DNA of 64,000 nucleotides, from assembly GCA_963575745.1 (NCBI GenBank), contig CAUYUJ010021170.1:1098801-1162800 (forward strand). Reading direction: 5' to 3'. Below the pieces are notes generated by a model. The model did not search any database, was not told the origin of the DNA, and saw nothing but the letters and a program-made list of their open reading frames with translations. Positions 5,879-59,240 of this stretch are shown here, piece after piece. The stretch's first letter is position 1; each line of letters begins with the position of its first letter. Position numbers and translations under genes: made by a program. The DNA is from Prorocentrum cordatum (taxonomy: Eukaryota; Sar; Dinophyceae; Prorocentrales; Prorocentraceae).

Positions 5879-5929
5879 CATTACTCCTCTGAGCCCCACT
5901 CCTCGCTCCGGAAGATTCCGTAAAGGGGC

Positions 5930-30720: not shown

Positions 30721-31268
30721 GCACCGGGCTAGACGCAGGATGGCAGGGCGACCGCACGCGGTGGCTTGCGCGGGCCGACAGCGCGGCACGCTGCACCGGA
30801 AACGAGGGCGCGCACGCGCAACCTTGCGCAGGCAGCAGGCTGCGCAGTCGGCCCTTCCGCCGCTCAGGTGTACCCAGGGGCTCCAGTCGCCCGTGTCTTC
30901 GGCGAGGCTTCCTGGCGAATGCGCGGAATGCCCACCCCGGGGCCATCCGCCGCGTTTGCCTCTGCCGACCCTCCTCCTCTTCCTCCTCCTTCTCCTTTCC
31001 TCCTCCTCCGACCCTGACATTTGAGTAAGGCGAAACATAGCACAAGGACCTCGACATCTAAATTCCTGTCGAGGTTTGAGGCAGTCCAGATAGGTCGATT
31101 GATCTGCAGGATTATGTCGGGCACTCTGGAAGGTCAGGGTGCCCCTGCCCCCCCAGCAAGGACTGACTGACTGACTGGCTGAAGCCGTGCGTCCAGCGGG
31201 ACGCTCTGGCACGAAGAACAATCGGGGCCACCGCCTGGGAAGACTCGCGTGCATAGTGCGCGAAGAAG
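30721..31268. other. GC-rich to mixed spacer, no gene
   Basis: Contains a CCT-rich patch at 30967-31010 and nothing assignable. Confidence 0.4.
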
Positions 31269-31560
31269 GGGGGAGGAGGAGGAGGAGGAGGAGGAGGAGG
31301 AGGAGGAGGAGGAGGAGGAGGAGGGAGGAGGAGGAGGAGGAGGAGGAGGAGGAGGAGGAGGAGGAGGAGGAGGAGGAGAGGGAGAGGGAAGGGGGTGTAG
31401 GCGGAAAAGGAGGAGGCGGAGGAGGAGGCGGAGAAGGAGGATGAGAAGAAGGAGGGGGAGGATGAGGGGAAGGAGGAAGAGGATGAGGAAGAGGAGGAGG
31501 AGGAGGAAGCGGAGGAGGAGGAGGAGGAGAAGGGGAGGAGGAGGGGGTCACGAGTGCACT
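31269..31560. repeat. (GGA)n purine array
   Basis: Almost pure GGA to about 31375, then GGA/GAA/GGC variants. Frames are poly-Glu, poly-Gly and poly-Arg. Confidence 0.95.
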
Positions 31561-33309
31561 GCACACTGCGCGAATAAGGGGAGACAAGGAACGAGGAAGG
31601 GGGAGGGGACGGAGAAGGATGAGGAGGAGGGGGGTCGCAAATGCAACTTGCAGAAAAATAAGGTTGGCGCATCATAGCAAGAGGCATGTAACTATGTGCG
31701 CGGACGAAGAGGCGGCTTGGAGATGCAATGAAAGGACAAGAAAAAGAAGGGGGCATGAACTGATGGCCCTGGCCATGGTTTCCAAACACCCCTTGATATC
31801 CACGCGCGCACGCACAAGCACACACACACACACACGGATATCCACACACCCCTTGTCCTCACCCTCCTATTCGACGCACCAGAAGGTGTCTAGGATCGAG
31901 GCTCGATGATCATTTCGCCGACGTCGTCGACGTCTTAGTTTCGGAGGACGCTGACCACCACCGTTGAGCACGAGGAAAACGCCGTCTGCGCGAAGGGCAC
32001 GCATGGCACTGCGCCAACGGCGCCGTGGCTGTCAAACGCCGAGAGCTCCTGCCTGTGGTAGTCGTTGACCCCGTCTGCACCGAGTCACTTGAGCATGGGG
32101 ATGCCCGCGCCTGCCGCAGCAGTGACCACGCGTGCGGCGCCCATCAGCTTCGCAATCTGCACTCGGCGGCGCGCCCAAGGGGAAGTGAGAGGGGGCAGAC
32201 CTTCTCAGGAGGCGGCGGGGCTTCTCAAAGGCCCCCGGCCTCCTGCAAAACCGTCTCTGTCTTCGGGGAAGGCTTCGAAAACTGCTCAGAAGGCCCGAGG
32301 CCTTCCGAGCCTCCTGCAACGGCCCGCCCCCTCTGCAGACTCCCCCTGGGCTCGCCGCCCATGCACGGCGACAAGCCGTATGCCGACCAGGCCAGCGGTG
32401 GCCACCATGGCCATTCATCTGTCGCCCGGGACTCCGCGGCGCGCCCGCGGCACGGAAGACTTCAGGGCCTCTGGCGGCGACGCCGGGGAGCGGGCCGGCG
32501 TCAACGAGAGGGCGAGGCGCTCAAGGGCTGCGGCCGAACCAGGTCGCAACTCGCGAGCGCGTGCTTCGACCCGGAGCGGGGCACCGAGGCAGGAAACCAG
32601 GCGCCCCAGCGCCGACCCTGACGCAGGGGCAGCTGCCCCACGCTGCCAGAACAGCTCCCGAGCAGTCGCCGTGGAGTGCGAGGCCCGCCGCCGACTCCTC
32701 CGTCCGAAGGGTCGAGCCTGGAGGACCCGCAGGGCTTCCGGGCGCCCCCGGGGGCACTCCCTGGCCAGCGCAGGGGAGGGGCGAGGCTGAGCGCCGCGAG
32801 CTTGGGTTGTTGGAGGCCTCCTTCTCGATCGCCGCCTTCAGGTTCGTGACCTCGCCCTGAGTCGGGTGTTGCTAGAAGTGCCCCTGGCCCGAGGTGCCCC
32901 CAGGATGTCCAAGGAGGCCCCCACGGCCTCCAGAGCACCCCATCACGAGGCCCAGAGGGCCCGAAAGGCTTATCTAGCGATAAGAAGGGGGCACCTCGGG
33001 CCAGGTGCACATTTGGCAGCCCCCGACTGAGGGACGAGGGGAGGGGGAAGAGAGGCCCTGGGGATTTCGCACCCTTGCTGCAGGGCCGGAAGAGCTCCAA
33101 CGAAAATTTGCACTCCTAGGGGCCCTTTGGGGGCGCCCCCGCCGCAGCGGCCGGGCATGCCTAGGGAGGGGGAGAGGCGGAGAGCGAGGAAAGTGAGGAT
33201 GATGCTGATGCTGAGGAGGAGGGGGAGGGAGAACAATCAGAAGGAAAGTTGGAGAATGAGGGGGGAGAGAAGGGAAGGGGGGCTCCTGCGTCCCTTCTCG
33301 CCCTGTGGG
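31561..33309. other. No recognisable gene
   Basis: A (CA)n run near 31815-31835 is bracketed by GGATATCCAC-like copies (31792 and 31836). From 32100 to 32800 the DNA is GC-rich with overlapping open frames on both strands. No domain or motif is recognisable. Confidence 0.4.
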
Positions 33310-33500
33310 GGGGGTTAGGAGGGAGGAGGAGGAGGAGGAGGAGGAGGAGGAGGAGGAGGAGGAGGAGGAGGAGGAGGAGGAGGAGGAGGATAAGGAGGAG
33401 GGAGGTGGAGGAGGAGGAGGAGGACAAGGAAGAAGGAGGAGAAGGAGGAGGAGGAGGAGGCGAGAAAATTGGAGGAGAAGGAGGAGGAGGAGGAGCCGGG
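33310..33500. repeat. (GGA)n purine array
   Basis: Pure GGA from about 33321 to 33388, then interrupted GGA/AAG units. Confidence 0.95.
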
Positions 33501-33846
33501 GTGGCGGCGCGAGGCGGTGTCGCGGGGCACTCCTCCAGGGCGTCCTGGAAGGACCGCCAACCGCCGTCGCCGCCCGCTCCCACGGCGGCCTCGGGGGCGA
33601 GCGCTCGGGATCCGTAAACGTCGGTCGACAGAGGTAGGCAAAAGCATGAAGCAGGAAAGCGGATAGAGTAGATTGGGTTCAGGCCCTCCCAGAGAACAAC
33701 AGAACACAGGAAAAGTAGATCGATTCTTGAAGTAGGGAGGCGCTTGAAGTAGATTGGGATCTGAGAATCCCCAACTACTTGCTTTCAACGACTGACGTGT
33801 ATGCCTGCACGCGGGGATTTCGGGGCCCCAAGGCCGGTTGTTGGTG
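33501..33846. other. No gene seen
   Basis: GC-rich then mixed sequence. GAAGTAGATTGGG-like text repeats at about 33667 and 33748. Confidence 0.4.
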
Positions 33847-36185: not shown

Positions 36186-36190
36186 CGATC
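36186..36190. other. Target-site duplication CGATC (left)
   Basis: CGATC directly precedes the left LTR and is repeated directly after the right LTR at 55324-55328. Five base pairs is the usual duplication for copia elements. Confidence 0.9.
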
Positions 36191-36365
36191 TGTGTGAGGG
36201 TGAGGAGGACCAATGGACCGACCCCACCCCCGAGTGTCCGTCGGTAGACGATGAGGGACGATGGTTTTACCCAACGTACCTCCAAGTATCGAGTACCTGT
36301 CATCCGAGCCAAGAGGGGCGATGGATATGAGCAAGATAGGAGGAAAGTAGGGGGATTCACACACA
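36191..36365 (-). repeat. 3' LTR (175 bp)
   Basis: Starts TGTGTG and ends CACACA as an inverted terminal pair, consistent with the TG...CA rule. I compared it base by base with 55149-55323 and saw no difference. It is short for a copia LTR. Confidence 0.95.
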
Positions 36366-36390
36366 CCCCCCGTCCCGATCCCGCCCGATG
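36366..36390 (-). other. Polypurine tract for plus-strand priming
   Basis: Read on the minus strand, the bases next to the 3' LTR are GGGATCGGGACGGGGGG and then the LTR start. This is almost all purine, and the position is right for the second-strand primer. Confidence 0.7.
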
Positions 36391-37122
36391 CCAACGCACA
36401 AAAGCGAAAGGCACCGAAGCGGGGATCGGGATAGGAGAGTGAATCTCTACTGAACTCCTGTCTGCAATCCACTGCTTCGGCCCAGGAAGGAAAGGAAGGG
36501 ACAGCCAAAGCTCTGTCGTAAGGTTCGTACCCAACGGCGGCGCTAACCTGCAAAAAGTTTTACAGCGCCAGCCGCCGAGATAGAACCCAGGACAGTGCTG
36601 TGGGCTGGAGAGAAGTGGAATGGAGAGACTGAACTCTTATGACACCGACCCAAACGGTCGGTGCCCGAAGCAACACATGATAATCATGAATATGAAGTCT
36701 TCAATCCAATACCAAATCAAAGTAATCAAATCAGTCACGGTACGAGGGTGGTGAAAATCTTTTTATGCAAGTTCCATATCCAATCTGTACCAGATGCAAT
36801 ATGTACGTCTTGCCACAGTTCAAATCTAAAGGATATTTATGCAATTGTGCATTATGCGATTTTTTTTTTTTGAATCTATATGAGTAGTATTATCCCATCA
36901 TGAGGATAGCTGTCACCATAAACTTTCTCACAGTTGTTGAGTCCATGAAGAGGAAGAATCCTTGAAGTGATATACTGATCAAAAGGTAAGTGCGAGCGTC
37001 CTCGAATACTACATGTCATCGAAGAAAATGATATAATGCATCAATAGGCACATCAACAATACGACAAAGTTGGAAGCCAGTCAAAATCTTATGGGCGGCA
37101 TGGCAACCAGTTTCCTGGTGCG
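36391..37122 (-). other. 3' untranslated part of the element, AT-rich
   Basis: About 730 bp between the stop codon and the polypurine tract. From about 36650 to 37080 it is markedly AT-rich, with an 11-T run at about 36861-36871, unlike both the coding part and the host flanks. No frame is coding-like. A possible splice-acceptor-like TTTTTGCAG on the minus strand (36552-36560) is noted only in passing. Confidence 0.6.
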
Positions 37123-40100
37123 TCAGCGTGGAGGGTCCCAGCGCCATGATCTGCCCGTATATTTCCCCGATGTGTACTTCTTATTCCATGCAGTCGCGCC
37201 CCATCCATTATTGGCGAACGGATCCCACGCTTTGGTCCAGATGAACTCGCCCCAATGGTCGTACCACTGGCGGTCATACGGTGCAATTTGCCTGTCATAA
37301 TAGTGGGCACCGTATTCAGCACTGTACCCGTGGGTCACATTCGAAATGGCGGGGCGCTTTGCCAGAGGTGGTCCATCATCGGGACGCGCAGGCGCATATC
37401 TGGCAGCGGAGGCGGTATGGCCATGGCTGTCGAACGCGCCGGAAGAAGTACGATACTCGGATGTGTGTGGTGGTGGCTGGGGGGTTGGATCGGTCCCGCT
37501 CCCCCTAAAGTCACCCCCACTACTGCTTCCTGGAGCGTTGCCGCTGCGGTCTCCCGCTGCACTGGCGGTCTCCTGAAGCTGAGAGTAGTATTCTTCGCGC
37601 TCTCGCTTAACACCGGATCGGATCTCGTCCCGGGACCCAGTCAAAGACTGTGGGTGTGCACGAATTTCTGCGGCGGTGATGGCACCGCGGAGAGATTCGC
37701 CCGGGACGTGAACGGTAAGGTGGTTGCGCTGAAAACGCTCACGGAGTGTTTCGGCTCCAAGGTTCGGCGCTCCGACCTCTTTCCTCTTTTTGGAGGCCTG
37801 CCAGAGGCGATCGGCCTCAGTGGCAACCTCTAACGTCCATGCAACCCTACCAGCCTGAGTCCGAACTGTTGTCATCTGCGCACGAAACTCATCATCCTCC
37901 GCAAAGCGCTGTGCTAGAGACATGTATGGATGATACATGGGAGGATAATTTGGATTCTCAGGCGGGATGCCGTCCGCGTCGGCGTCTGCACGTAGCTTGT
38001 CGCACTCCTCCCGAGATGGAGAACTCCAAGCTAGCCACTTCTGATGCCGTTTGTCAGCTTTCTTCCCCATGTTTTGAAGCTCGTCTTTAGCGTCTGTCTG
38101 TGGCTTCTTCGAGCCACGCGTATCAATGGGGGCAGCTGTGATGCGCTTGGCGACGTCATCCGGCTGAGTGGCGGCAAACGCAACGAACTGTTCTCGCCAG
38201 GCCGCAACTTCGTCCGGCCATTTGGAGTTCTCGTACCTCATGCAAAAGGCACATTTCAGAGTGGCCCCAGGCGTGTCCAAATCAGCTGGCATCCGAGCGT
38301 TGCAAATTGCGCAAGACGGGATGCGAGTCTGTAGCTCTGGAGGTGCCAGTCCTGTGCTCTCGTCGAACTGAACGACCCCTGCGAGCAGGGTCGCGAAATT
38401 CTCCTGAGATGCGCTCCCACCTGGCGCAGAGACGATTTGGCGGGCCCGATCGAGGTGATCAGGTTCAAGTGGGGCAAAGATCTTCTCGTCGTCTTCGTCC
38501 AAGATCTTGTCAAGGTCGCTGCGGTTTCCCGCTGCACCCTGAGACTCGGCGGAGGCGGAAGCAGCGACAGCCTGGTACGCATCTTGGAGAACTTGAGTGG
38601 CGAGTGTGCGTTGTGATAACTGTGAACCAACGACAGAATCAATAACGGTTTTGGTAGCCTCCACATTGTCTTGCGATGCTAGGGTTTCCCCTTGCTTCGT
38701 AGCCAATGTGGAAATCTTTCCGTCGTGGGGCGCCTCATTCACGAACTCATCCTCCACATAGGTCTCTGTGCCCATGCGGAGTGCAGCAAGGCCAGGATGA
38801 TTCTGCACAACCTCGGCGTTCTCAATGTCGATGAGTGCAAATTTGTCGCCAGCCTGCTGGTAGAGGTTCAAGTATGCCATGGCGCACCATGAACGTCTGC
38901 CGTATGCCAGGGTTCTGTATCGGAAAGTACCAATGCACTGGAAAAGGTACTTTGTGAAAGCTCTGTGTCCACATTGGTCTGGGAAACGGTGACACCATGG
39001 TGCATCGCAGTTGAACTCGAAGGTCATTGTTGTATTTGTGATATCGTCCATGTTCAAGACAACGGTGTACTCCATGGTCTGCTTCACTTTGGTGTTAACG
39101 ACACCGTGATGCCCAGATCTACGAACAATGTGGACTTTCTTGACTGCTTTGAAATAGTCTGGTAGGTCGGACTGATCTGGTCCATATGTGAGAGTTATCT
39201 CCGCGTTATCCTCCATTGTATCGATCTCATTGCGGATATCATTCAGCTCTGGGGACCAGTCATCCTTCTTGAGGAAGTCATCATCAGCATGTTCTGGAAC
39301 ATGTGGCACAGTGTCACCATTGCTGCGATTTCCCGCTGCGCCGTCATCATAACTTTCCTCTGGAAAATCCGTTGGTACAGGGATTTCGGTCGGCGAGCTC
39401 TGGTCCTGTGTGGGGACCGGCATCTCTGTAGGTGAACTGTGATCGTCTGCCGCCAGAGGGTGATCCTCCGCTGCCGGCGGAGGATAGTCGGGCGAGTGTG
39501 GAGTGATAGTCGGCGACGGAGGGTCAACTGCCATTGGTGTCGGTTCTGGTACGACTGTCGGCGATGACTGGGCCGGAGGTACCTCGTCAGTGGGCACGTC
39601 CAAAGACTGAGGGCTCCTGATCAATTTAAGCAATTCACCTGGCTCAGCTCCACGAGCATCTATGTCGGCGACCTCCTCAACCTCTGGGGGCTGTTGACTG
39701 GGGGCGCTGCGGTGTCCCGCTGCACTAGAGGCGTCTGTATGCCTCTGGCGCAGTGGAGCACGAAGATCTCCCACAGCCCTGACGTCACTGGTCGGCGTCA
39801 TGATCGCATGACGGGGTGGAAAGTTAACTGGGGGACCGAAGCGAAGGTCATCTGGGAGTGAGTTGGCGTCAAAGTCTGGGCAAGGTACAACGCGGGCAAG
39901 CGTGTTGCCCGCCAGCATGCCCTTCGTGCCATCCCAAACGTTCATCCAGTGATCTCCGATTTTCACGGTCACGTATCCCATGAACTGGCCTACCTCGCGA
40001 ATGGGTCCGAATAGGGATCCCATTGGTTCGCCTTCATGAGGGCTAACGCGCTCGCCAACCCAGGAACCATCTGAGTGTTTCGATGGCGGGTGAGAGTAAA

Positions 40101-43100
40101 AGTAGCAAGCTTGTCTTGTTTGAACGTAGTCTCCAATCCGATAGGTCTCGTGGGGACCCATGGGCGGCCAGGCTGACGTGATGTGGCTAACGCGGCCCTC
40201 AGTGGCAGCCTGTAGAAACCATTGGTCGTAACGCTCGTGAATCTGACGATTACGCTCGCGCTCCTGGTCTGTTGTCAACTGCGAAGCTGCGGTTTCCCGC
40301 TGCATAACAGTTGGTATAGAGACGTCAGGGGCGGATGTGTCGCCAGACTCGTCACGATGTGCTCGGATCGGAGGTGCCACAGGGCGGATGTTAACCAACC
40401 CGACGGCCTTTCTAGCCGCTGTTAAGGCATTGATTGCATCAGCGAGTCTACTCTGTGTCCTCAGCAGCGCGGCCTCGGACTTAGCAAGGGCGGCTTCCCT
40501 CTCGGTGGCCTTCTGGGCAGCAGCCGCGGCCGCGTTGTGTGGGTCTAACGTGAGGCCCTCAACTCCCTCGGAGACTTCTTCCACGGCTGTATCTCTCGGC
40601 GCGGCGGTCTCCCGCTGCTCTGCTGCGATCTCTCGCTGCACGTGCGGGGGGGCCGAAGCGATGGGAGTGTGTGCCGGTGGAGGTCCTGGGGGGAGCGGCG
40701 GAACAGGCGGCGAAGCCTTGGCAATACCTTGTCCAGGTACAGCTCCCACTGGTGGCGGCGCATGCCGTGGTGGCGGTGGTGGAACCCTGTTGTCGCCCAC
40801 GACCTGGCCAGGATACACGTTGGGAGCGATCGGCGGCGGTAACTCTCCTCGAGGAGGTCTGCCGACGCCTTCTGGTGGCGGGGCCTTCCTCTGGGGTGTC
40901 TTGGGAGCACGTTGCCCAGGCTGGCCTGGCTGGAGTGGAGTCGGAGGCGGAGGCGGAGGCGGTGGAGGCTTCTTTGGCACATCGTTGCCTCGAGCCAGGG
41001 GTCTGGGCTTGTGCACAGTCGGAGCAGACGGCTTAGGTGGGGTTGGAGGTGCAGCTGCGGTTACCCGCTGCGCATCGCCCCACGGGTTATTGCCATGGCC
41101 ATACACTTGCCATGGCCACGAAACTGTGGAGCGCTCATACTTGGACCGTGGCTCAGAATCACGAGGAGGTCTGGCCAGGTCGTCGTCGTCTGGGCGCCCC
41201 CAGATTATTTTGCCGGTAGCGATGTTCCTGCAACGAATAAGACAATGTACTGGGATGTCGCGTTCTGCCATTATCGCGCCCTGTTTACCCTTCCACCAAG
41301 TGATGCCAGCCGTAGCGCATTTCTGATGGTCAATCTGAAATTCACACTGTTTCTTAGCGGAATGAAAGACGTACGGCGGTATGGTGGTGTAGGGGTTCTG
41401 GCCGCAAGAGTGAGAGAAAGGATGAGCGGAGGCAAAGACCTCGGCACGGGTTGCCCCATGCTTGTGGTCTCGCTTGTCGAATCCTTTGATTATGCCTGGG
41501 TTAGACCTTGGTGAGCCTTCGGTAATGCTCCGCACTGAAGACAGCTCGGTTGCGTGCCAGAGATATGGAGTGTCATGAACAGACAACTCCTCCCAACCCA
41601 TGTTGTGGGCTGTGGAATATGGGTGCACCTCGGACTGACCACCTGTGCTTCGTATGGCCAAGATGCGGCCGAACGGAAACGTAAGTGGATTGAGGTCAGA
41701 GCCGACGGGTGCAAACACTTCTGTGCGCGACTTTCCATCTGCATGGTATTGCAGCATACGAATGGCCATGTAACAATAGTAATCGGCCAAGTCGATGTAG
41801 TCACCATTGTCACGCTCAGTTTCCCAACATGCTAGGACGGCCTCGTTCGTGGGTGTCTTGCGGTATTCCCATTTCTCCTTCTTTCTGTGGTAGTATTCTT
41901 GCTGGCTGCGCTGCCAGCAATTCATCGCACACTCTCGAAAGGTGGATGTCTTGGAAAAATCGATGTTCAGACGCCGATCGTGATATGCGTTGGTCACTCC
42001 ACTTGTGTGACGGAGTATCGTCATGAGAAACTTGCTAAACTCCCAGCGTCCGAAGTCGCATCCATCAGGAAGAGGTGGGCCGTATGGGCAATCTCGCCAT
42101 GGGGGCAAGGCGATCCACTCATATGTTCCCTCGAACCAGCGGCTGCCGACGAGATCGTCGGCGTATTTGAGCACGTGAATGTCCTGTTCATTGGTCAGGC
42201 GCCGCGGGTCGTTCTCGGGGACATTGTCCGGGATTGTTCTGCGAAGCAGTGGATCGACATCAAAAATGACAATGGCATTTGGATGATCGGGATCAATCAA
42301 TGCTAACTCTCGTGGGGTCTTCCATTTGTCCATGTCATCTGTACGCTTCTTGACCCCGGAGAAGTAGCATGCCCGCTGTGGTGTCAAAACTTCGTACTTG
42401 GACGATGTCTCTTCGGCTACGGTTTCCCGTTGCAAGACCGTGTCATCGTCCTCGGACTCAGCGGTCGTCATCGGGTGGTTGTCCATCCACTGCTGGGCCT
42501 CCGGGTTGAGAGCCATTTCTTCCGCCAATCGGAGGTGCCGGGCATCGCCTTTACCGTTCTTCATAAGGTCAGGGTCGAGCAGGTAAAGGCCGGCGTAAAT
42601 GGCGGCACACAGTCGTGCGTGTCTCTCGCGCCAGGAGGTCTCGGATGTGCATTCCATGTAGCCAGTGATCCAAGAGTTACGGTCTGGTCCAAGCGATTTA
42701 TTACGAGTGTCCTGGAGAAGGCCTCGGTATAATTTGGACATCTGAGAAACATGATCGGCCATGACATAATCGTCCTGAGTCATCACTAATGCATATGTCG
42801 GGTCAGCCGTCGTGTCCTCTGTGACTGGCAAGAAGGTAATGTCACCTTCTTGGTTCAGAACGGCGCGCATCCCAAGGTCCTCACGCTGCTGAATAGATTC
42901 TGCGTTGGAAGCAAAGGCCGTGGTTGCGCGCGTGGATGTCTCGTCTTCGTTTTTCATACCAGATCGCTTAAGATGTGCTGTGATCATTTTGGCGATCTCG
43001 GGAGCGACGGTAGGCGGGGCGGCGGCTGTAGCAACGGTTTCCCGTTGCACAGCTGCGGTGTCCCGCTGCTTGGTCCAATTGCAGAGGTTATGAGCGGCAC

Positions 43101-46100
43101 GCATGCACATCAACTCATTGGTCTTCGCACGATCAACGTTTGATGCTGAAACGTGATCGTATAGACTCTGGATGTGTACTTGACGATGGTGCCACGCGAT
43201 CAGCAACATGTGGGACAAACTATGAGATTGTGGCTCATTAAGCGGCTTCACTGCGGGCTGTTTGAAAGCGTAGAACTGACTTGGCTTAGAGTTCATTACG
43301 CCGTAAAGGTTCTTGAGTGTTGCAAAGGTGACCCATTGCGCAGCGAAGCGAGCCCAATTCGCACCTGTCTTCTGGCAGTGCCATCCATCATCCTTGGTGC
43401 GATCCATAGCTTGTGTCCATGCCGAGTTGTTGATCACGGAAATACCACGTGTCTGCATAAGGATGCACATATCTTTCGAGATGGTGTCGAAGTGGTGAGG
43501 TAAGCCCCAATCTTTGGCCGTGCCAGGGCCAATGACGTGAGGATGTTTATACCAGTTCGCAACGTCGCAAAATCTATCAAGGCCGATAGTGATATGCGGC
43601 ATCATCTCGAGCAGGCATCCTTCTTGTGCTTCCCACTTGCGTTGGTACGCACGGTGGTCCCGTCTCTCCCAACCCAGGTCCACTCTTTGGGCATCGACGC
43701 TTTTCTGATTGTAGTCTGGGAACGTGATGTCATTGTTGTTCCACCAAAAAGTGGCAGTGGCACCACGCTCATACCACAATTGTTTGTAATGAGCATCAAG
43801 GTCGGCCCAAGTGTCCCATAGGGCTTCATCCATGTCGAAGTAGCGTTTTCTTTGAGCGGTGTCCATATTCTGGGCGCGCATCTCTCTGAGCGTGGCGATT
43901 CTTTCGAGGATATCACGATGGAGACTCCAGAGTGAAGAATCAATACCATCAATGGTGGTGCCTTTTTCAGCGTTGGTGATGATGATTCGTTTCCTCTCCG
44001 ATGCGCGCTGGTCCAGGCGCTGAAGCTCTGGGACAAGGCTCAGGTCTTTGTAGTCTTCATCGGACGAACCCTCGGGGCGCTGAGGAAGATCCGTGCCTGG
44101 CTGCACGACGTGATCATCCCAGAATCCTGGAATGTAGGAGTAGAACCAGTCCAGGATACAGTCCCGAGCCGCGGAGGCTAGAGTAGCGAGAGTGGCTCCT
44201 CCCATGTACTCTTGATGCACTGGGGTTGGGACGAGTAGCGTTGAGAAGGGTTGTCCAACTTGGCGAATACAATCATAACTGCACAGCATGTTGATGGCCT
44301 CTTCAGGCGTATGGTAATTCTTGCTGGCTTTTCCCATCATAGGTCCCGAGTCGGTGAAGATGTAGAAGAATGGGGTGGCAGTGCCTGTAGGTCCAAGGGC
44401 ATGGTTAATGGATAATCCAAGATCCTCTGTGGCGATCTGCATCCAGCCATTCTCATCCGCGAAGCATTTGAGCACGGAAGCGTTGGTCCACGTGTGATGC
44501 TTAGCGTGATCGAAGTCAATGAAATCGTTAGTACTGTCACCGCGGGATGTAGAGTCGGCACAAACCAACAAAGGGTCGGAAGCCAACAAAGGAAAAATCT
44601 GTTGGTTGTGTGATGGGCATCCGAAGATGTTTCGCCTTTGGTGTCCCGGGGCCCAACCACTAGTACGAACGGGACTCTCGTTCGCCTCAAGATCCTCACG
44701 CCAGGGGTCATCACCGCTGCGGTTTCCCGCTGCGTATCGATGGCTACCTGTGTCGGTGAGGCTAGCGATGGCAATGGGGCGAGACAAGTGGCCCCCAGAT
44801 CCGCACGGCGGGTCCAAACGACAACTGCCCCCTCCTATGTACTGGACATGGTGTTTAGGCGAAGCCGTTCTCATGTCACTGTTGAGGTCTCGAGCGGGGA
44901 TGTCGATGAACGAGTTGTAGCTGTTTTCCACGAACGAGCCAACCGAACCTGCGCAGTCGCTCTTGTGTGGAAGAGCTTTTCCGTGTGTCAATCCAGAAGA
45001 GGGCCGCTGGACACCAAAATTATGTCCGTGGTTGGGCGTGTCAAGGCTGTCTAGACCTAATGGGCGATGCTCCTTTTTGTACATGTTATATGTGTCGTCA
45101 AGAGAAGAGCTCACCCATCCACCAATGGCGGTGGATCCAACTGTAGGCCATGCACCTTGGAGTCCTTTCCACAAGGACGTGGCGGCGTGTGAGAGGCACT
45201 CAAGAGATGGCATCAACGGTGGCTCGCTGCGGTCTCCCGCTGCTATGCTGCGGTCTCCCGCTGCACGGCCGAGAGCCTCGGTGCGAAGCCAGTTGAAGTG
45301 TTGAACGATGCTCTCCAATTGGTCAGTCATATCCTGGTCGAGGCAAGCCTTGGCTACATACGAATGCAGAACAGCAAAGAATGAAACCCAAGGGAGTGTC
45401 GTCTCCTGCAACAAATTTTGCATCGAAATCTCAACATCCATCTCGACGGCGTTACGAAGGTCTTTGCGTGAGCATTCAAGGAAGCAAACGCCAGAGCCCT
45501 CTGGTGCCTGAGTAAAAGCTATCGGGAACTTATTAGGGCCTGCCCACGGTAGCTGAGTATCGAACGCAGCTCCAACAGTGGGTCGAATGATTGGTCCGTC
45601 TGGAGGAAGAGTGCAGGCTGGGCGCTGGATCATCGGAAAGGCACGATTGAAACGTAGTGTCCCTACCGTGATGTCAACCATGTCAACGTCCTGGTCATCG
45701 CCGCCCTCTAGCGGGGGTTGCCCTCCGCGTGGAGCGCTAGGGTTACCCCCTGAGCTCGATGCGGTGCCCCGCTGCATGCTGCTGGGGGGGGAACGAGACC
45801 GATCCTGCAACTGTGTGTTTGAGCCGCCTACCGCGCCGGGGCCAGGCGGGGCGGCCGGAGTTTCCTCCGCTTGGGAAGAAACGCTGCGGTTATGCATAAC
45901 ATCTCGTATAACAAGAGTGCGTAATGGTGAAGAAGAGGATGGATCAGGGGAAAACGATGTCGAAAAATGGTGACCTGTATCAACCTTACGCCTAGTTCGG
46001 GTCGGGCTCTTAGCCCGGGTCGGTCCCGGGTCTTTCTTGGCCCGGGTCGGACTCTTCTGAGGAGACTTGCGGCGTTGTCGCGGGGACTTGGTCCGTGCCG

Positions 46101-49100
46101 AACGCGAAGCGTTGGACCCGGCTGTGATGCTGTGATGATGTCCACATGAGTGCAAACCCTCGTGATTAGGGCAACCAACACATCTCTTACCACATGCTGA
46201 TCCAACGTCGCCCCAGGGGTCCTTGGAAGTGAGAGCAACTTCACAGAAGCCCGAACATCCTGGAGGTTTTGGGGGGTCGGCGGAGTGCGGTAGACCGTTG
46301 GGTGTAGTCCCCTCGTCCTCCGTCATAATATGTTGACGCATGCCCTTATTCAATGATGGCGAAGGACGAATGAGCGCAAGCTCGAGAAGTGTTTCCCAAA
46401 CATTACTCTTTTTGGAGTCGAAATGTTTTGTCATCATGTCCGCAACTTGTTCCTTAGTACCTACGTGTGACAAATGTATTTGTTCATGTTGACAGACTTC
46501 CACGATCCAATCCAGGTTGATTCTATGCGTGCGATGGAGGTGCCGCAATGCGGCCGTCCTACCTTTCTTTACTATTTTGATAACAGCCTCATTGTCCTCG
46601 GCTATGATAAGCTGTACCTGCGGAGGGCTCTTATCAGAATGAACTTTGCGATGGTCATGTAGAGGATGTTCGCCGAATGTTGTTAGGGTGGATCGAGGAG
46701 AGTCGTAAGTGCCAGGGGCTGGGGTTTCCCCCTGCTTCTTATACGTTGGTGGCTTACGCTGTTTGCGAGAGGCGGCGGCAACTTTGTCGCGGGCCTTGTG
46801 CGTGCGTACAACGTGTTCCCAAAAGGTAAGCAGGGGGAGGCCTTCAACCCGGAGCGCCGTGTCCAACGCGACGATTTCGGATTCCGTAGAGGAATGCGAA
46901 ACCACGGTTTGTTTCTTACACACGGCGTTGATCGGGAAGAAAGTGTTGGGGCCCACAATGGCGGCAAAGATGCCTGTCGTGGACTTCGACGTAGAAACAC
47001 AATCTGCATAGGAAGCGTCTGTAAACAGTATAATGGAAAGTTTATCGGCGGAATCGCCGATGAAACCCTGCAAGCTATGCGTCTTGGTGTGCTTGATGTA
47101 GCATACAAGACGATGCAGACGTTTGTCGCAAGCTCGATTCCATTTGGTAATCTCGCGTGCCAACATGCAGACTGGGTGTAATAAATCAAAGCGACAGCAT
47201 CTTGCAAGATATAAAATTTTCATTAGAATGCTAGCCGACTCTGGGCCGAGGACGCCTTTGTCGTCAAAATCAGCTTCTGTGAAGGCGGAGTCCTCGATCC
47301 CAGGGGTTTCGGAGACGGGTAGGTCTCGGAACTTCATTTTCGGATTGTCTGGAATGGTAGCAGCAACCTCAAGGTAGCGATCGATACATTGATCAATATA
47401 CCCGCTCATATTATATCGAACGCCACGGACATCTTTGGCAGTTTTGTAGGCTGCGGTGTCCCGCTGCGCTTGAGGCAGTAAAGGACGAATGGTCTCCATA
47501 CGTTTGTTGAACTCGATGTCTGATACTGTATATGGAGCCTGTCCGCAACCGAGATATTGATCAAGTTTGGTGGGCGGATCGATCTTGATGCCACTGTCCC
47601 GGATGAGGTTCCATCCAGCTTCTAGGTTGTCTTTTGGGCCGGCCAGCTTGAAGTCGTCGACGTATACAGAAAGCACCAATCCAAGTTTAGGGTGGGTCCA
47701 AATGCATTCCCATCCTTGCATAGGAACGAATCCTTTGCTCTCAAGGCATGTCTTGCAGTGTCTCTCCCAAAAGACGCCAGCAAGAGGATGACCATAGAGA
47801 GCCAAACGGAGTCGGCACACTGGGTCTTTGTATTTAGCCCATGATGCTGGTCGACGTGCCGGTGGGAGGCTGATCCATGTATCGACTGGGTCAATTCTGC
47901 CATCACCGTACAACAGCGCCTGCGTGTATGCTGATGGTGCATCACTCTGGCCACCATTGTAACCGGGCATGTGTGCGACAGCATCAACGAGCTTTGACGC
48001 CTCAATATGTGATGCGCTGGATGCGGCATCAGCGAAAACCGCTGCCAGGCCTGTTTGATCTTTCATAGTATTTCCCTGGCAGACAACGCGACCTTTGTAT
48101 TTGCGCTGTTCAGGTGGGAGTTCGGAATGCTTCACAGTTCCGAGTTCGAGTAAATGCGCAAAATGAATGTCCTTGCCCTCCTTAATGGCCTGCGCTTTGA
48201 CATCGGCGCGTTCAGCGACGGTGTCTTCCATCCATGTGGTCTGTGCGCGAAGGCGATCATATTCTCCACGGAGAGCGGCCTGAGCGCGTGGTTCTGCTGC
48301 TATTTGCTTTTTATTGAGGCTCTGGGTTACCAGTGCATATGAGGTAGTTTCATGACGCTCACGATGTGGCTGATCAGGCGTGTCTTTGGGAAGGACGGCC
48401 ATGATAGGAGCATCAACAAAACCAGAAACCTTTCTCTGCCGGACAAACTGCGCGAAGGTCGGTTTCAGTGTGAGACAAAGTGGATTCAAAGCACCGAATG
48501 ATGGACCATCGTGTTCAATGTTTGTCGGTGATGCGATCGCCACTGCAGCTCTAGCCGGCGATGATGACGATGCACTGGTTTCCCGGTGCTCATTATCGGG
48601 TAAATAATACAGCACCGTAGTAATGTCTCGGGGACCACCAGGGACAGGGGCGTACAAAATAGTTTTGTCTGTGACGCCCTTGACTTGTTCATCTCGGATC
48701 GTGTCTCCGGTGTGCGTGTCAAGAGTGATTCGACGCTCGACACGGTCCCATTTCGGTCCATCCGAGCGTGTTGTTCTAAGTGTTTTGGCGTTGTTATCCT
48801 GACGAGACCAGGTCTTCAGAGTTGCCTCATGTCGGCGAGCACGAGCTTCGGAAACCAGCTTACCGAATGCACGTTCGCGATCGCGCTGGCGACCAGAAAG
48901 ACACTTCCAGTACTCCACGAGACAGTGATCGGGCCTAGTAGTTTTCTGTATTTTGGTATCACGTCCCATTGATTTAATTTTGCCATCGGAAGTGTATTCT
49001 GGAGCATAGTAAAATCGCACGGTGCCTGTCCAGGGTTCTCCCAGGGCTCGATGATCGCTCTCACTGACTCCATCCCATGTGTCTCTGAACTTGTCCTGTC

Positions 49101-52100
49101 CCTGGAATGTCGATGTAGTTTCAAATTCACGAATTACATCGAACTTTTCCAATGGTACCGGTAGCCCTTCTGGGGCGTCCGTGGGGATAAACAACTGTAA
49201 ACGTGGGGTACATATGTGACGAAGAATCGTAGCATCACGTACTTCCCAATAGTCTGGAGTTGCCGCAGGGGCGGTTGGTAATTCTGCCTCTGCGACGGCT
49301 GGGGTTTCCCCCTGCATCGGCGCATGAGCAGGGTCGTCCCAGTCCACAGGGTAGTTGCTGAGTCGTGGGTCATCGTTGCGCATGGGGTCCAAGCAGTCGC
49401 CGAGAGGTATTTTGGCCTCATCTGCAATGGACTCGTGCATGGGCGGGTTATGATGAGTAAGAACGCCGTCAGCGACTGGGAACTCAAGTTTAGCTGGTAC
49501 GACGATATCTTTGACACGATGAACGTGACAATGGGTGCTGTCTGGGTATTTGGCATATGTGGCGGTGTCGACGACTAGGTAATCTCCAGACCATCGTCCG
49601 CCAGCATGCATATGATAACCCATGAACAATCCCTCGCGTGTCGTCTTCGTGAATTTCTTGCCATCACTATCTGTGTTGAGTTCCGGGTACAGGCATTTCC
49701 AATATACTTTGGAGCCAAAGGGTACTGTACGTCCATTGAATGACTCTCCGAAGCGAATCTCATATGGCGTAAGTTCCGCCTTATTTGGATCGGAAGATGC
49801 GGTACCGGTAGTAGACAGAGAGAAGTTGGTGGCATTACAGAAACATTGCATAGCCTCGCACCACCATTCATGTCCCAGACCAGAAGCCATAAGGACAGCC
49901 TTTGTGCCTTTGACCACGCGCTGCACAGCACGCTCTACAGTCCCGTTAGTCTGAGGTCGGTGTGGCGTGCTGGTATCATGGCGCCAGCCAAGTGTGGCAC
50001 ATGCTTTGATGAGTTCTTTGGAATTGTCGGTATAAATATGTTTAACCTCATCATTGGGGGCGACAAATTTCGTCAGACTAAGTTTGGTGGTTTCGGCATC
50101 CTTGTGCAATGCTGGATAGGCCATCATGGTGCCCGTGTGCTTGTCTAGGACAACGAGAGCACACCTTTCCTTCAGCCTGCCAGTGGCCTCATCATCTCCA
50201 ATAATGATATGATCTGCTGTCAAGGAATCTCCAAATTTCTTCGGTACGAACGCCTCATAAGTAGAATCATCTTCGTTTTTCTCGAGATCTGAACGCATCT
50301 TATGTTTTCTTTTGCAAGGCTTGTTGCGAATCAAAGCTCGAGCGCATATCTCACAATCTGGGTGTTTGGGAGAATGAGTCAAGTAATGACTGGGGTCAAT
50401 GCTCGGTCTCTCGACGACAGGGAGAGCGCACTCAGGGCCCTGCTGCGGGTCACCGCTGCACGAGGGTTTATTTAGAACCTCGAGGGTGTAACACCAGCAT
50501 GGGCCTTTAGTGGGGGTCTCCTCTGCGGGGTCGATGGGAAAGGTCTGAAAGCGACCACGACCACAGTCCCTGTGAGACATGCTTTTCCACTGTGGCAGGA
50601 TCACTCCGCAGCATGATGTCCTGACGCGTCGGCGTGGGCATTCCTTCGTGTGTCGCCTCGCGGAATACAAGGGGGTCGGCGGAGGTGGCGGAGCATCATG
50701 CATGTGGTCGATATTGATCTGTGGAATAAAGTTATGTACCACAGCCTGTTTAGGCTGGCCATGTGGGGGTGTTAGTACGCATCCAATTCTTCTGTTCCAA
50801 TGTATATCCCAATCATCTTCCTCGACAAGACGACCCATGGACCAAACGGACGGGCAATTATCCATGACCAGGGTGTCTTTCTCGATGCCGAGTGCTGGGA
50901 TTTTGACACGTACATGTTGGTTGACGATTCTCTCGCCATTGGCGGTTTCCAAAATGTGTTCTCGTCCAATGCGAATGCCCTTTTTCTCGGATTCTGTCAT
51001 GTCGGCTTTATCTGAAATGTGTAATGCCGAACCGCTATCAAGGACGAAAGAACGCGATATTGCTACCGTGTCCTTTGTTGGAGGGGCGCTGGCTGCAGTT
51101 TCCTGCCGCGACGAAGCTGCAGTTTCCTGCTGCTCTGGTGCTGCAGTTGCCTGCTGCGCCGTGGCATATGTGTGGAGCAGCACGTCCTCCTGTGGAATTG
51201 CGACGTAGCAATAATCGAAGTGGATGTCCTCGTCGTCGTCCAGCCTCCGTATGAGGGCGAATGCATTCTCCTGGGCGCGTGTCAGATGAGCCTGAGAACG
51301 GATCCACCACCAATCGGGTATTGGATCTGGAACGTGGACAGCACCGCCTTTGTTTGGTGACTCCCGATACGGTCTCATCTTACGTCGAACCGTGAAAAAA
51401 TCGATATCGGTAGCAGCAAGGTTCCAGCGAACCTTTAGTTTTGGTGTCGATGTCGTCGCAGGCGGTTTGGTCTTGAGAATCTGGGCCTTTGAGATACCAT
51501 GTGTAGGTGAAACTGCGAGGATCTTCTCGCGTATCACGTACACTCGGTTGGTGTTCCGAGCGGGAGAGCGCTGTCGTTGACTGGACTGCGATGTCCGACT
51601 GGAACGGGAGCCAGATCGTGAATCTCTCTGAGACCATCTTGCACCGCCTGGACTACGTGATCGGCCTTGCCGCTGAGACGAACGAGACGGCGATCGCGAG
51701 TCCTTCTGGGACCAGCGAGTGCCACCTGGGCTCTTGGAGGGCTGTCGAGTGTTCGTTGAGAAACGACGGTTGCCCCCCGGACTCCTGGAGTAAGCCCTGC
51801 CCCCCGGACTCCTGGTGAAAGATCGTGATCTCTGCGACCAGCGTCTACCACCTGGGCTTCGGGAGGGGAACCTCTGTTCGCTTCTGGGCCTGCTGGGGCT
51901 GCGAGGCGGCGTCTTGAAGCCATTTTTATAGTGGGCAAATTTGCAGGTATCCCCGTTGGTGCAATTGCCCTTCTGATAGAAGACGCAAGGATGCACGTGG
52001 TGCCGGTTGCAACCAGTGCGCTGACACATATTACCCTTTGCGAAATCGTAGCAAAAATACCTGGCAGCTGGAGGCCTCGAAGTAGCCGCGCCAGAGGCGC

Positions 52101-55068: not shown

Positions 55069-55124
55069 CTCGCATAACTAGTCCGATGTCGTCAGGTCGG
55101 GGCGCAGGTTGGACGCGATGTCGG

Positions 55125-55148
55125 ATATAAAAGAGAAGGCTGATAACC
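55125..55148 (-). other. Candidate primer-binding site (half-tRNA type)
   Basis: Directly inside the 5' LTR the minus strand reads GGTTATCAGCCTTCTC. It lacks the TGG start expected for priming from a tRNA 3' end. Its complement resembles an anticodon arm (AAGG-CTGATAA-CC), as in Drosophila copia, which is primed by an internal tRNA fragment. If so the loop would carry a GAU anticodon. This is inference from a short match. Confidence 0.35.
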
Positions 55149-55323
55149 TGTGTGAGGGTGAGGAGGACCAATGGACCGACCCCACCCCCGAGTGTCCGTC
55201 GGTAGACGATGAGGGACGATGGTTTTACCCAACGTACCTCCAAGTATCGAGTACCTGTCATCCGAGCCAAGAGGGGCGATGGATATGAGCAAGATAGGAG
55301 GAAAGTAGGGGGATTCACACACA
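55149..55323 (-). repeat. 5' LTR (175 bp)
   Basis: Identical to 36191-36365. It should hold the element's promoter and transcription start, although no TATA-type box is evident, as expected in dinoflagellates. Confidence 0.95.
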
Positions 55324-55328
55324 CGATC
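55324..55328. other. Target-site duplication CGATC (right)
   Basis: Matches 36186-36190 exactly. Confidence 0.9.
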
Positions 55329-55639: not shown

Positions 55640-56575
55640 TGTTCAACAGTTTTACTGATGCAGGGCGAATCGCTTTCAAACTTTGGCTCTCGCTTTAGAG
55701 CCGCGCATCATCGACTTAACAAGTGGAAAGTACTTCACGGATGGAGGGCGGGCAGTTTTCAAAATGTGGCTCTTGCCTTAGCGCCGCGTACTTTCTATTC
55801 TGACATTTGCAGCAGCTTCAAACACTGACGGCGGGCGGTTTTCAAATTGTGGGTCCCGCCTTAGCGTCGAGCGCACTCGTCTTAAAAATCAGCAAGAGAT
55901 TCACGAATTGATGGCGGGCAGTTTTTAAACATAACTCTCGCCTTAGCGCCGCGCACATTATTTTCAAATGCTTGCAAGGGCTTCACGGATTGATGGCGGC
56001 CAATTATCAAAATGCGGTATTCGCCTCAGCGCCAACCACATTCGTCATGAAGATTTTGCAGCCGCTTAACACATTGAGGCGGTGCGTTTTTCAAATGGTG
56101 GCTCTCATCTTAGCGCCGCGCGCATTCGTCTTTTCAGGACATAGGAGTTTCAGTGGCTCCCATGGTCAACGTACCAGGGATGGCGTTTTGGAGCGATCCA
56201 GGAATGTGAGGGCGCAACAGTTAGTTTGTGTCGCGGCGCCGAAGTCCTAGGATTCAGGAATGTCAAGACGCAACAGCCAAGTGGATTCGCGCAGATCGAG
56301 TCCCGAGAATGGTGTTTTGGCACGCTGCAGGATCTTCCACGGTTATCTTCCCACGAGGCATCTTTCTCAGTGGAAATGATTCCTTGTAGGGGCCTATGAA
56401 GAGGGAGCTTGGAGGGAGGATGTATTCCAACATCTTTGATGAGTCTTGGGTTTATACTGATCCTCCTCCTCCTCCTCCTCCTCCTCCTCCTCCCCCTCCT
56501 CCTCCCCCTCCTCCTCCTCCTCCGCCTCTTCCTCCTCCTCCTCCTTCTCCTCCTCCTCCTCCGCCTCTTCCTTCT
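55640..56575 (+). repeat. Composite dispersed repeat, copy C
   Basis: About six subrepeats of roughly 84 bp are anchored on TTAGCGCCGCGC-like motifs (55690, 55775, 55858, 55931, 56022, 56107). They are followed by shorter repeats with GGCGTTTTGG and GTGTTTTGGCACG (56170-56320). The end block with GAGCTTGGAGGGAGGATGTATTCCAACATC (split here at 56405-56434) then leads into a (CCT)n tail from 56461. It is the longest and best preserved of the three copies. Confidence 0.8.
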
Positions 56576-57158
56576 CCTCCCCCTCCCCTCCCCCTCCTCC
56601 TCCTCTCCCCCTCGATCGCTGACGCCAGGATCCTCGGGGGTGCACCTGCCGAAGAAGGCCGCCGGCCGCGGCGCCTGCAGAGGCCCCGCGGGGCCCCGAC
56701 GAGGGCGGGCAGTGGGTCCCGGGGCCCCGCGGGGCGTGCCGGCGCCTGCGACGGTCCCCGAGGCGTGCAGGCGCCCGGGAGCCCGACCGCGGCGAAAAGC
56801 CTCCCTGGGCTCCTCGCCTCCAGGGCCCCATCTCCTCTGCCTCGAGTGCGCCTCTCTGAGATTCCGCGTCTTCTCCCCGACCCCGCCTCGCCTCCAGGGC
56901 CCCCTCCTCTCCTCCAGGACCCCTCCTCTCCTCCCCCTCGCCCCCCCTAGGCCAATACGCCCCCGCCCTCTCCGCCAGGACCCATGTCCGACCTCCCCCT
57001 CCATGCCCGATATATCGGCCGCACCTCCCGACGAGGGCCCGCCCGCCGCATGTGGACCCCCTCGCGCGGCCCCGCGTGGTCCAGCGGCGTCGGCATCGGC
57101 GTCGGCTCCACCGCCGTCAGCGTCTGAGTCAGCGTCTGCGTCTGCATCAGCGTCTGCG
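56576..57158. other. GC-rich sequence after the CCT tail, no gene
   Basis: Begins with CCT/CCCCTC tracts, then the AAGGCCGCCGGCCGCGGCGC block shared with copy B (about 56655). Overlapping frames on both strands are GC artefacts. Confidence 0.45.
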
Positions 57159-57437
57159 TCAGCATCTGCTGCTGAAGCAGCTTAACGGCGTCAGCGTCAA
57201 ACCGTTCTCGTCGTCCTCGTCGTCGTCGCCGCAGGCCGTGGGGCTGGCAGGCGCCTCCCCCCAGGGCCCCGCGTGTGTCAGCGGCCGGCCGTGCTCGTCC
57301 AGCAGGTGCTCCGCGCGGTGGGCGCCCTGCGCGACCACCTGGCGGGCCGGCGTCGCCGCCGCGGGCGCCGCCGTCAGCGTCGGCGTCGGCGGCGCCGCAG
57401 GCGTCGGCGTCGCAGGCTTCGGCGTTGTCGTCGGCAT
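57159..57437 (-). CDS. Possible exon or small ORF, 92 aa, uncertain
   Basis: The frame begins MPTTTPKPATPTPAA (low complexity). It then reads as a more ordinary protein segment with QVVAQGAHRAEHLLDEHGRP and an acidic ACGDDDEDDENG stretch before the stop. It lies in GTC/GCC-rich DNA, so it may be a compositional accident. No family recognised and no splice signals could be established. Confidence 0.2.
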   Translation of the reverse strand: MPTTTPKPATPTPAAPPTPTLTAAPAAATPARQVVAQGAHRAEHLLDEHGRPLTHAGPWGEAPASPTACGDDDEDDENGLTLTPLSCFSSRC

Positions 57438-58200
57438 GCGTCGGCGTTAACATGCACCGTCGTCGGCGTCGGCGTACCCTTGCTCTCCTCCTACTCGTCA
57501 CCGCACAGCGCCTGCTGCCAGAGACAACGTGAAAGCAAGTGCCCAGTGCAGCTCCCCAGAGGGATGGGGAGGGGGATAAGCAGAACGCACGATTGTTCCA
57601 AAACGCGCGAACGGCTTGACCCGTAACTTGGTAGTCTTACCACGTGGCCAGCATTTTCAGGCAACGCTGACGCTCGCGTCGCTGAGATATACTACTTTAG
57701 TATGCGTTACGTCCGTCGGCTCCAGGCCAGCAGATCGAAAAGAACCCGTGCCAGAAGAAATCATCCCATCAGCCGGCGGATCTCGAGGGGATGGTGCGTG
57801 CACTAGGAGGGCTAGAGGAACAACCACCGAATGACCTAAGGAACATCGAGCCCCTTTCGTGCCCACAATGTTCCTTACTTCAGCGTCTTGACTGCAGTCA
57901 TCACCGCCCTCTCGGCCTCTCCCGACGGTATGGCCGGGGAGCAGGCGGCGCGCCAATCCCAGCCTTGAAGGCGTCGTACCCGAGGTCCCTGGCCTCCTCG
58001 AGGCACGCCAGGCTGTTGAGCTCGAAGGAGAGGTACCTCCCGTGCCCGGGAACCCTTTTGCCTCCAGCGGCGCGGGGAAGAGCGGGGGGCGTCAGGGAGA
58101 TTAGGAGGCAACTACTGGGAGGTCTCCTCAATCGGAAAGGTCAAGGAGAATTGAGCCCCGTCGGGGGGCTGCTTCGCCAGATTAGGCCGCGGAGCAAGCG
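57438..58200. other. No recognisable gene
   Basis: Mixed-complexity DNA. Frames on both strands are short or overlap. Confidence 0.4.
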
Positions 58201-58305
58201 GGATTAAACGGGATTCAGCCAGAATAAACGGGATTGAGCGGGATGAAGTCGGAATGAGCCAGATTAAGCGGGATTGATCCGGATTCAACCAGATTTCGGA
58301 CCAGA
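58201..58305 (+). repeat. Short-period array (GGGATTNAGC)n
   Basis: About eight units of roughly 11-16 nt containing GGGATT, GGATT or GAATGAGC follow each other with variable spacing. Confidence 0.65.
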
Positions 58306-59240
58306 GCACAGCCAGAATTTGACCTCTCAGGAGTTGCATCCGAAGGGAGATGGTGGTGCGGGCTTTTCCGCTTTCCCGCCTCTCTGTGCCTGCTGTGCAC
58401 GCCTCTGCTCGCAGATCGTCGTGTTCACGCGTGTGTGTTACTTCTTTCGGCGCTAGCGTTCAGATGCGAGGCTCGCTTCAATCATCGCCGGCGCAGCGTC
58501 AAAAGCAGGGAGACAATTCCTGCTCGACGCGTGTATAGCCTCACTTCTGGGCCTCCCGGCCGCCAAGGCTTCGGCTCTGGCCTCGAGATCCTGGCAGGGG
58601 CGCGCTCTCTCCAGGGGCGGGCCCGGGGGCCGAGTTCTAGAAGGGTTCCCTTGGCACCGTGGCAGAAGCACAGCGGGCGCTCTCGATCGCGGTGTCGGCC
58701 TCCGAGGGCCGCTGTCGGGCGCCGTGAGGCCATCCAGAAACAAGGCGCGGCGAGCAGCCAGTCTCACCAACGGGGGTGGAGGATGACGTGGCACGCGGGG
58801 CCCCGTGATCCTCCATGGCGCCCGCCTCGCATGAGCCTCACTTCCGTCCAGCGTTGCGGGTCATGGGAGTGCTATCGGAGGAGGGATCCCAAAGGTTTGC
58901 CGACCGTCCTCGAGGCTGAGGGGTGGGGGCTTCTGGAAGCCCCTTCGGTGGTTTTCCAAGCACTCTTACGCACGAGGGCTCTTAAAAGTAGCTTTAGGCT
59001 GCCCCCCTTCCTCCTACTCCTCCCTCCGTGTTGCATTCGTACGTAGGCCTCTGCGCGTGACGGTTCTCAAGTGTAGAAGTTTGTTCCTGTCTGCGTTCTC
59101 GCCCACCGCAGTTCCCACATCGGAGAACGGCAGAGCGCTCATGCCCCCGTCCGATGACTAACTCCCTCTCCTCCGTACCCTCCTGTCCCGCCCCCCCTCA
59201 CCGTGCTCATCTCCCTCCTCCCTCTCATCCCCCCAGCCCC
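58306..59240. other. No recognisable gene
   Basis: Normal-complexity to GC-rich DNA. The 203-codon plus-strand frame at 58435-59046 has no recognisable domain and overlaps minus-strand frames, so I do not call it. Confidence 0.35.

Follow-up and report, generated by a model that had tools for sequence, protein, structure and literature searches.

The window analyzed here, a 64-kb stretch of contig CAUYUJ010021170.1 of the dinoflagellate Prorocentrum cordatum, contains on the minus strand of 36191-55323 a complete long terminal repeat (LTR) retrotransposon, whose polyprotein carries, downstream of a copia-type reverse transcriptase (RT), a domain derived from the Tpt1/KptA family of RNA 2'-phosphotransferases. 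The frame encoding this polyprotein is open over 37123-55077 on the minus strand, with 5984 codons and no stop. Residue numbers below count from codon 1 of this frame (those of the original prediction are these minus 3), and the parts of the element are as follows.

36186..36190, no strand: target-site duplication CGATC adjoining the 3' LTR, from the flank sequence
36191..36365, minus: 3' LTR, from its identity to the 5' LTR
36366..36381, minus: purine-rich tract directly 5' of the 3' LTR, read from the sequence
37123..55068, minus: single gag-pol-plus open reading frame, ATG to stop, the first ATG being codon 4 at 55068
41194..42060, minus: Tpt1/KptA-derived domain, residues ~4340-4628, from profile comparisons and predicted structure
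47548..48111, minus: copia-type reverse transcriptase (RVT_2), residues 2323-2510, Pfam E=2.4e-06, below the Pfam cut-off
49954..50166, minus: integrase core (rve), residues 1638-1708, Pfam E=2.5e-04, below the Pfam cut-off
51931..51990, minus: CCCH zinc finger in the gag part, residues 1030-1049 (PF18345, 2.2e-06; PF00642, 3.7e-04, above its cut-off)
55133..55148, minus: putative primer-binding site GGTTATCAGCCTTCTC, directly 3' of the 5' LTR, read from the sequence
55149..55323, minus: 5' LTR, 175 bp, TGTGTGTG...CACACA, from its identity to the other LTR, with ends read in the sequence
55324..55328, no strand: target-site duplication CGATC adjoining the 5' LTR, from the flank sequence

The integrase lies upstream of RVT_2, which is the Ty1/copia order, and this arrangement, together with the LTRs and the 5-bp target duplication of CGATC on both flanks, bears out the earlier assignment to copia. 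The RT region aligns at 572 bits with P0001, a protein annotated with RVT_2, and a search with this region recovered 127 relatives at E<=1e-3 (best 6.3e-166), many with the same annotation; the 120 of these that were listed are the relatives considered throughout. Names among them include Symbiodinium (P0051, P0087, P0119, P0120) and 'uncultured Marinobacter' (P0015), while most derive from ENA/JGI contigs. The two LTRs are identical, the raw repeat of 177 nt reducing to 175 nt once one matching flank base per side is subtracted. The frame is intact and the insertion very young.

The domain shows SKFL..LRH, KSRTEVF and IRSTGGQS in its N lobe, and LWHAT, TRAEVFAS and GITWWKGKQGAIM in its ADP-ribosyltransferase (ART) lobe. 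All five motif blocks on which the original prediction had based a Tpt1/KptA domain are found (SKFLMTILRH at 4348, AIRSTGGQS at 4474, YLWHATE at 4505, KRDHKH at 4535 and AGITWWKGKQGAIM at 4590); however, KRDHKH, present as claimed, sits in an insert, and alignments assign the true equivalent of the RxxHxH-like block to TRAEVFAS (R4544). Similarly, the place proposed for the domain, 41224..42051, holds, but its limits are better set at ~41194-42060 from the predicted structure. A long insert had also been proposed, and indeed ~94 residues separate the LRH from the KxR motif, as against 47 in the KptA of E. coli. Of 24,736 Pfam families, PF01885 is the sole one at E<=10 in a 450-aa slice covering 40978-42327 (E=0.069) and again in a 550-aa slice (E=0.13), and with a 339-aa cut it is the sole family at E<=0.1 (E=0.028). 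Taken for the window alone this match is suggestive only, and it was the route through the RT relatives that changed the picture, because these carry annotated PF01885: it is in the precomputed annotation of 28 of the 120, two of which bear the JGI name 'RNA:NAD 2'-phosphotransferase (TPT1/KptA family)'. A profile of 11 bacterial and phage KptA sequences directly finds 13 of the 120 relatives, and 39 after iteration. With the window excluded, the iterated profile of KptA and relatives scores the window domain at 51.9 bits (E 4.4e-18, for one sequence) and the whole frame at 42.2 bits, matching at 4447-4634, whereas the reversed domain scores ~0 bits and tiles of the frame outside the domain core at most 5.9. 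Since iterated profiles can drift, an alignment of the window with 22 of 33 relatives (A2, 23 sequences) was compared as a guard with Pfam, PDB and KptA; profile comparisons by two routes both return Tpt1/KptA. We consider homology to Tpt1 virtually certain.

The structure model, built on an alignment of the window and 22 relatives from which cellular Tpt1 was absent, displays the two-lobe fold of a winged-helix RNA lobe and an ART lobe. Its 18 best structural matches are solved Tpt1/KptA structures, human TRPT1 being first (nearest 7yw4, 7yw3 and 7yw2, with 16-20% identity in structural alignments), so that the Tpt1-type fold put forward earlier is the one recovered, and no unrelated family matches better. 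AlphaFold run from the single sequence gave a poor model, with a predicted local distance difference test (pLDDT) score of 37. Against viral models there were 7 matches at E<=0.001, including a nidovirus replicase polyprotein and a giant-virus Tpt1/KptA, all with low template-modeling (TM) scores (<=0.42 by query length).

To follow the domain across the family we mapped and aligned 33 bearers, i.e. the 39 above, which include the weak P0070, P0072 and P0075, minus P0026's six near-copies (identities of 96.5-97.3%). For one bearer, P0019, PF01885 was not among the families at E<=0.1 when the whole protein was scanned with Pfam. In all 33 the domain follows RT/RNaseH. It is present in 37 of the 43 relatives with at least 1100 residues past RT/RNaseH (29/35 with near-identical copies counted once, 28/35 without the weak P0070), and in 2 of the 77 with fewer, many of which may be cut short. 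The RT tree (110 rows, LG+G4, a quick run with support from the Shimodaira-Hasegawa-like approximate likelihood ratio test, SH-aLRT, only) left out P0120 as a fragment, the six near-copies of P0026, P0111 and P0032 as 97.7% and 98.7% identical to P0052 and P0031, and, by judgement, P0099 and P0102, which are of low coverage and not near-copies (best match <50%). In this tree the domain bearers are scattered over several clades. The window groups with P0001-P0007, P0021, P0031 and 13 elements annotated with a DNA methyltransferase (DNMT) in a clade of 23 rows (SH-aLRT 100); the window's two nearest rows there, P0001 and P0002, end soon after RT, with no domain seen. In the domain tree, comprised of 29 retroelement and 11 KptA rows after removal of the same near-copies and the weak P0070, P0072 and P0075, the retroelement copies form one clade (100/100). 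There are long branches in both trees, the window's being among them in the domain tree. The two trees have 15 of 26 splits in common, whereas none of 200 label shuffles gave more than 2. One of the common splits unites the window with P0003, P0004, P0005, P0007, P0019, P0021 and P0031. The plain reading of one retroelement clade and of common splits is one capture followed by long joint descent of domain and RT, and we hold such a single, long-inherited capture to be very probable. Scans of viral contigs for DNA of the relatives found none.

Other domains were noted among the relatives. Cytosine-5 DNA methylase is annotated in 13 of the 120 (P0008, P0010-P0013, P0015-P0020, P0022 and P0056) and is confirmed by Pfam scan in P0011 and P0019, the latter having both this enzyme and, by profile, a Tpt1-like domain. 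Copia elements of Symbiodinium are given as free of DNMT in one account (PMC5890265), with which the DNMT of these 13 RT relatives need not conflict. Further, the copia-type polyprotein P0064 combines a dUTPase at its N terminus (3.7e-28) with an ADP-ribose-related NADAR domain (5.5e-20), both within residues 60-434.

Tpt1 is described as moving an RNA 2'-phosphate onto nicotinamide adenine dinucleotide (NAD+), with a catalytic tetrad, in CthTpt1, of Arg18, His19, Arg68 and Arg121, NAD+ being held by an HGT motif (PMC6333775). The corresponding positions of the window are:

41350..41379, minus: PPYVFHSAKK, expected site of the fourth tetrad Arg, with no Arg, from alignments
41554..41556, minus: His4508, the His of the HGT motif, which reads HAT here; present in all 23 aligned sequences, from A2
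41650..41652, minus: Arg4476, tetrad Arg3, from alignments
42007..42012, minus: Arg4356-His4357, tetrad Arg1 and His2, from alignments

Both the change of HGT to HAT and the want of a clear last Arg had been anticipated from the sequence, and the alignments agree: in H4508-A-T4510 the His and Thr are kept and Gly is replaced by Ala. Across the 23 sequences of A2, Arg1 is found in 23, His2 in 14 (9 having Gly), Arg3 in 19, the HxT His in 23 and its Thr in 20. The fourth Arg is found in 14 of the 23 and missing from the window and eight others, including P0003 and P0005, with which the window has a PY.F stretch in common (PPYVF in the window, EPYPF in P0003 and EPYKF in P0005). A complete tetrad is present in P0065, whose domain spans residues 3081-3339. 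The column of the fourth Arg is the one aligned with least certainty, as P0007, P0004, P0021 and P0031 show Arg in another alignment but not in A2. A sister group (P0026, P0034, P0044, P0046, P0052, P0053, P0060 and P0080) shows LRG in place of LRH and, for the most part, HRT in place of HGT; its activity may be a changed one. We file the window domain as Tpt1-derived, and not as a proven Tpt1 enzyme.

Taken together, our preferred reading is that a Tpt1/KptA RNA 2'-phosphotransferase gene entered a lineage of long copia elements by a single capture and has since been retained within the C-terminal extension of the polyprotein, as a domain that would act on RNA; we place the probability of this reading at about 0.78. 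Homology, the two-lobe fold, the fixed position and the co-inheritance with RT are what the computations establish. For a retroelement the obvious substrates would be its RNA genome and its tRNA-derived primer. The domain would work in or close to the replication particle, where an NAD+-dependent attack on an RNA phosphate, whether terminal or a 2'-phosphate left where RNA was ligated or broken, would turn the element RNA or the primer into a usable template or primer. Some Tpt1 enzymes are reportedly active on terminal 2'- and 3'-phosphates, a terminal phosphomonoesterase activity. Drosophila copia is primed by a tRNA half, and the complement of the putative primer-binding site, GAGAAGGCTGATAACC, reads like a tRNA anticodon arm (GAAGG-CTGATAA-CC) with anticodon GAU, suggesting a possible half-tRNA primer; given both, a primer end in need of phosphate removal is conceivable. 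No tRNA was found in the 64-kb window by ARAGORN. NAD+-dependent chemistry on RNA phosphates in this family is somewhat more likely than not, repair of RNA or primer as the role of the domain is a tentative proposal and less likely than not, and canonical 2'-phosphotransferase activity of the window's own copy is doubtful because the fourth catalytic Arg is missing.

Several observations weigh against this reading. The window sequence alone stays under the Pfam gathering score (12.8-14.9 versus 26 bits, 14.9 being that of the 339-aa cut), and a KptA-only profile gives it 5.9 bits, summed over three colinear pieces; the highest score among 2000 shuffles (829 reported) was 3.2, and another part of the same frame reached 3.5. 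Single-sequence searches of giant proteins, viral contigs and genome contigs gave no direct relative of the domain: among giant proteins it had 0 matches at E<=1 from 429 candidates, and a 700-aa piece 0 at E<=10 from 2159, while a PDB sequence search returned just two TrkA-domain chains (E 2-3). NCBIfam gave three-protein matches only, at chance level (E 0.014 and 0.051). Weak stretches remain in the model, with 66 of 339 residues at pLDDT <50. In the window R4356, H4357 and R4476 are kept and the fourth column is Ser, so that the full Arg-His-Arg-Arg tetrad is absent, and alanine mutants of each tetrad residue of human TRPT1 are reported to have lost RNA ADP-ribosylation (PMC6582358). The domain tree is without cellular eukaryotic Tpt1, so that single capture is only partly checked by it. 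The co-inheritance is weak in a Mantel test on raw identities (rho 0.207, with 1 of 5000 permutations as high), the comparison of trees being clearer. Finally, the domain diverges at about the rate of the flanking linker and much more quickly than RT, which could reflect relaxed constraint; hence constraint is evident at the active-site positions and not over the whole domain.

These same features bear on what else the domain might be. It could be an RNA-binding or structural remnant that has lost catalysis in this element, as would fit the loss of the fourth Arg, the HGT to HAT change and long inserts, the large sister group with LRG and mostly HRT, and the rapid divergence; but this is a very young insertion with an unbroken frame, and Arg1, His2, Arg3 and the His and Thr of the NAD site are kept, so that we deem this rather unlikely. 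Another option is that the domain caps the element RNA, placing ADP-ribose on 5'-monophosphate ends and so shielding the genome from 5' exonucleases, stopping translation and favoring packaging. Human TRPT1 and other Tpt1/KptA proteins are reported to ADP-ribosylate 5'-phosphorylated RNA with the same active site (PMC6582358), and RNA capped in this way to resist XRN1 and remain untranslated (PMC9458441). Yet capping needs the same tetrad, of which the window is without one Arg, and we think this improbable. An equally unlikely role is the countering of host defence, whether by repair of RNA cut by host nucleases or by disturbance of host NAD+/ADP-ribose signaling, in the manner of the ADP-ribose-related domains of RNA-virus polyproteins, KptA itself being reported from some such polyproteins (PMC9503650). 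Consistent with it are the viral structural matches of the model described above, the fast evolution of the domain and the NADAR and dUTPase of P0064; against it, no accession for an RNA ligase or cyclic phosphodiesterase is found in the precomputed Pfam annotation of the 120 listed relatives. We also know of no RNA-cutting defence of the presumed host. The chance that the resemblance is accidental, with no homology to Tpt1, as the weak single-sequence scores might suggest, is negligible in light of the window-free profile score, the two-route profile comparisons, the structural matches and the split in common with the RT tree.

The sense RNA of the element has a further repeated feature:

37543..54880, minus: 29 dispersed hairpins GCA-[4 bp]-GNNA-[4 bp]-AGC in the sense RNA, from a pattern scan

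With G-U pairs and at most 1 changed flank base allowed, all 29 lie inside the element on the sense strand and 0 elsewhere in the window on either strand. With flanks ignored, the element has 30 perfect GNNA stems on its sense and 11 on its antisense strand; the rest of the window has 13 on each strand, and shuffled element sequence 4.4 on average. In a set of 23 copies (15 distinct) picked by sequence similarity alone, 98.9% of cells pair, and a double change is seen in 4 of 6 pairs, each in one distinct row; of five measures, four were matched by none of 500 shuffles and one by 5. Of four copies folded with their flanks, three have the hairpin at minimum energy and one (46718) folds otherwise (z-scores -1.0 to -2.9). 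As the hairpins lie in two reading frames (21 and 8), encoding QRETAA- and AAGDRS-like peptides, the constraint looks like one on RNA. Footprints of these peptides occur in three Tpt1-bearing RT relatives of the window, P0007 (6 vs 0.1 expected), P0005 (3 vs 0.1) and P0003 (2 vs 0.2), and show a small excess over all 120 (36 vs 23.7 expected). One might combine these elements in a long-shot scenario, wherein the phosphate-blocked 3' end of a cleaved tRNA-half primer would be made extendable by the Tpt1 domain of the element, the RNA genome would be marked by the ~30 dispersed GNNA hairpins, and the subgroup without the fourth Arg would have shifted to a new NAD+-dependent RNA reaction.

Elsewhere in the polyprotein, ~2,700 more residues (2950-4320 and 4650-5984; 42118-46230 and 37126-41130) are without a convincing Pfam match. 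Residues 2950-5984 had no BLASTP match at E<=0.01 among the 120 listed relatives (225 matches for the RT region as a control), and 2950-4320 alone had one marginal match (E=0.007). Outside the element, 3389-3409 on the plus strand has 3 mismatches to the dinoflagellate spliced leader (1 found vs 0.01 expected), in keeping with a dinoflagellate source, and imperfect repeat tracts at 31237-33531 and 56426-59366, mostly with 9-bp spacing and mutually inverted, lie one on each side of the element.

A literature search for Tpt1 or KptA with retrotransposons found no described case, the matches being on other subjects as judged by titles and abstract openings. This is in line with the earlier statement that no copia element had been described with such a domain, yet databases automatically annotate PF01885 in related polyproteins. 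An LTR retrotransposon lineage that retains an RNA-repair enzyme while diversifying would, as far as this search goes, represent an undescribed kind of gene capture, and the retention and inheritance of the domain suggest an unrecognized step of RNA chemistry in the life cycle of the element. The role of Tpt1 outside fungal tRNA splicing is presented as an open question (PMC6333775, PMC6582358), and the element provides a natural setting for asking it because here the domain is tied to one RNA life cycle.

Like cellular Tpt1/TRPT1/KptA (PF01885), the window domain combines a winged-helix RNA lobe with an ART lobe and has LRH, IR..G.S, H.T, R..V..S and a closing G(I)..W/F block in the same order; unlike them, it is embedded in a retrotransposon polyprotein, with HAT for HGT, no fourth tetrad Arg and 16-20% identity. 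KptA/Tpt1 inside the polyprotein of an RNA-replicating parasite is also reported from the Botrylloides leachii nidovirus and the Beihai picorna-like virus (PMC9503650), and the window model has its structural match to a nidovirus polyprotein; these are, however, positive-strand RNA viruses, whereas the window holds an LTR retrotransposon with long co-inheritance, and thereby extends the NAD+/ADP-ribose theme of RNA-virus polyproteins to retroelements. Finally, SymbioLINE-Dnmt, SymbioDIRS-Dnmt3 and KnitGypsy-Dnmt3 are described as dinoflagellate or algal retroelements with a captured nucleic-acid-modifying enzyme (PMC5890265), but they belong to other element classes and bear on DNA methylation, in contrast to the NAD+-dependent RNA chemistry predicted here.
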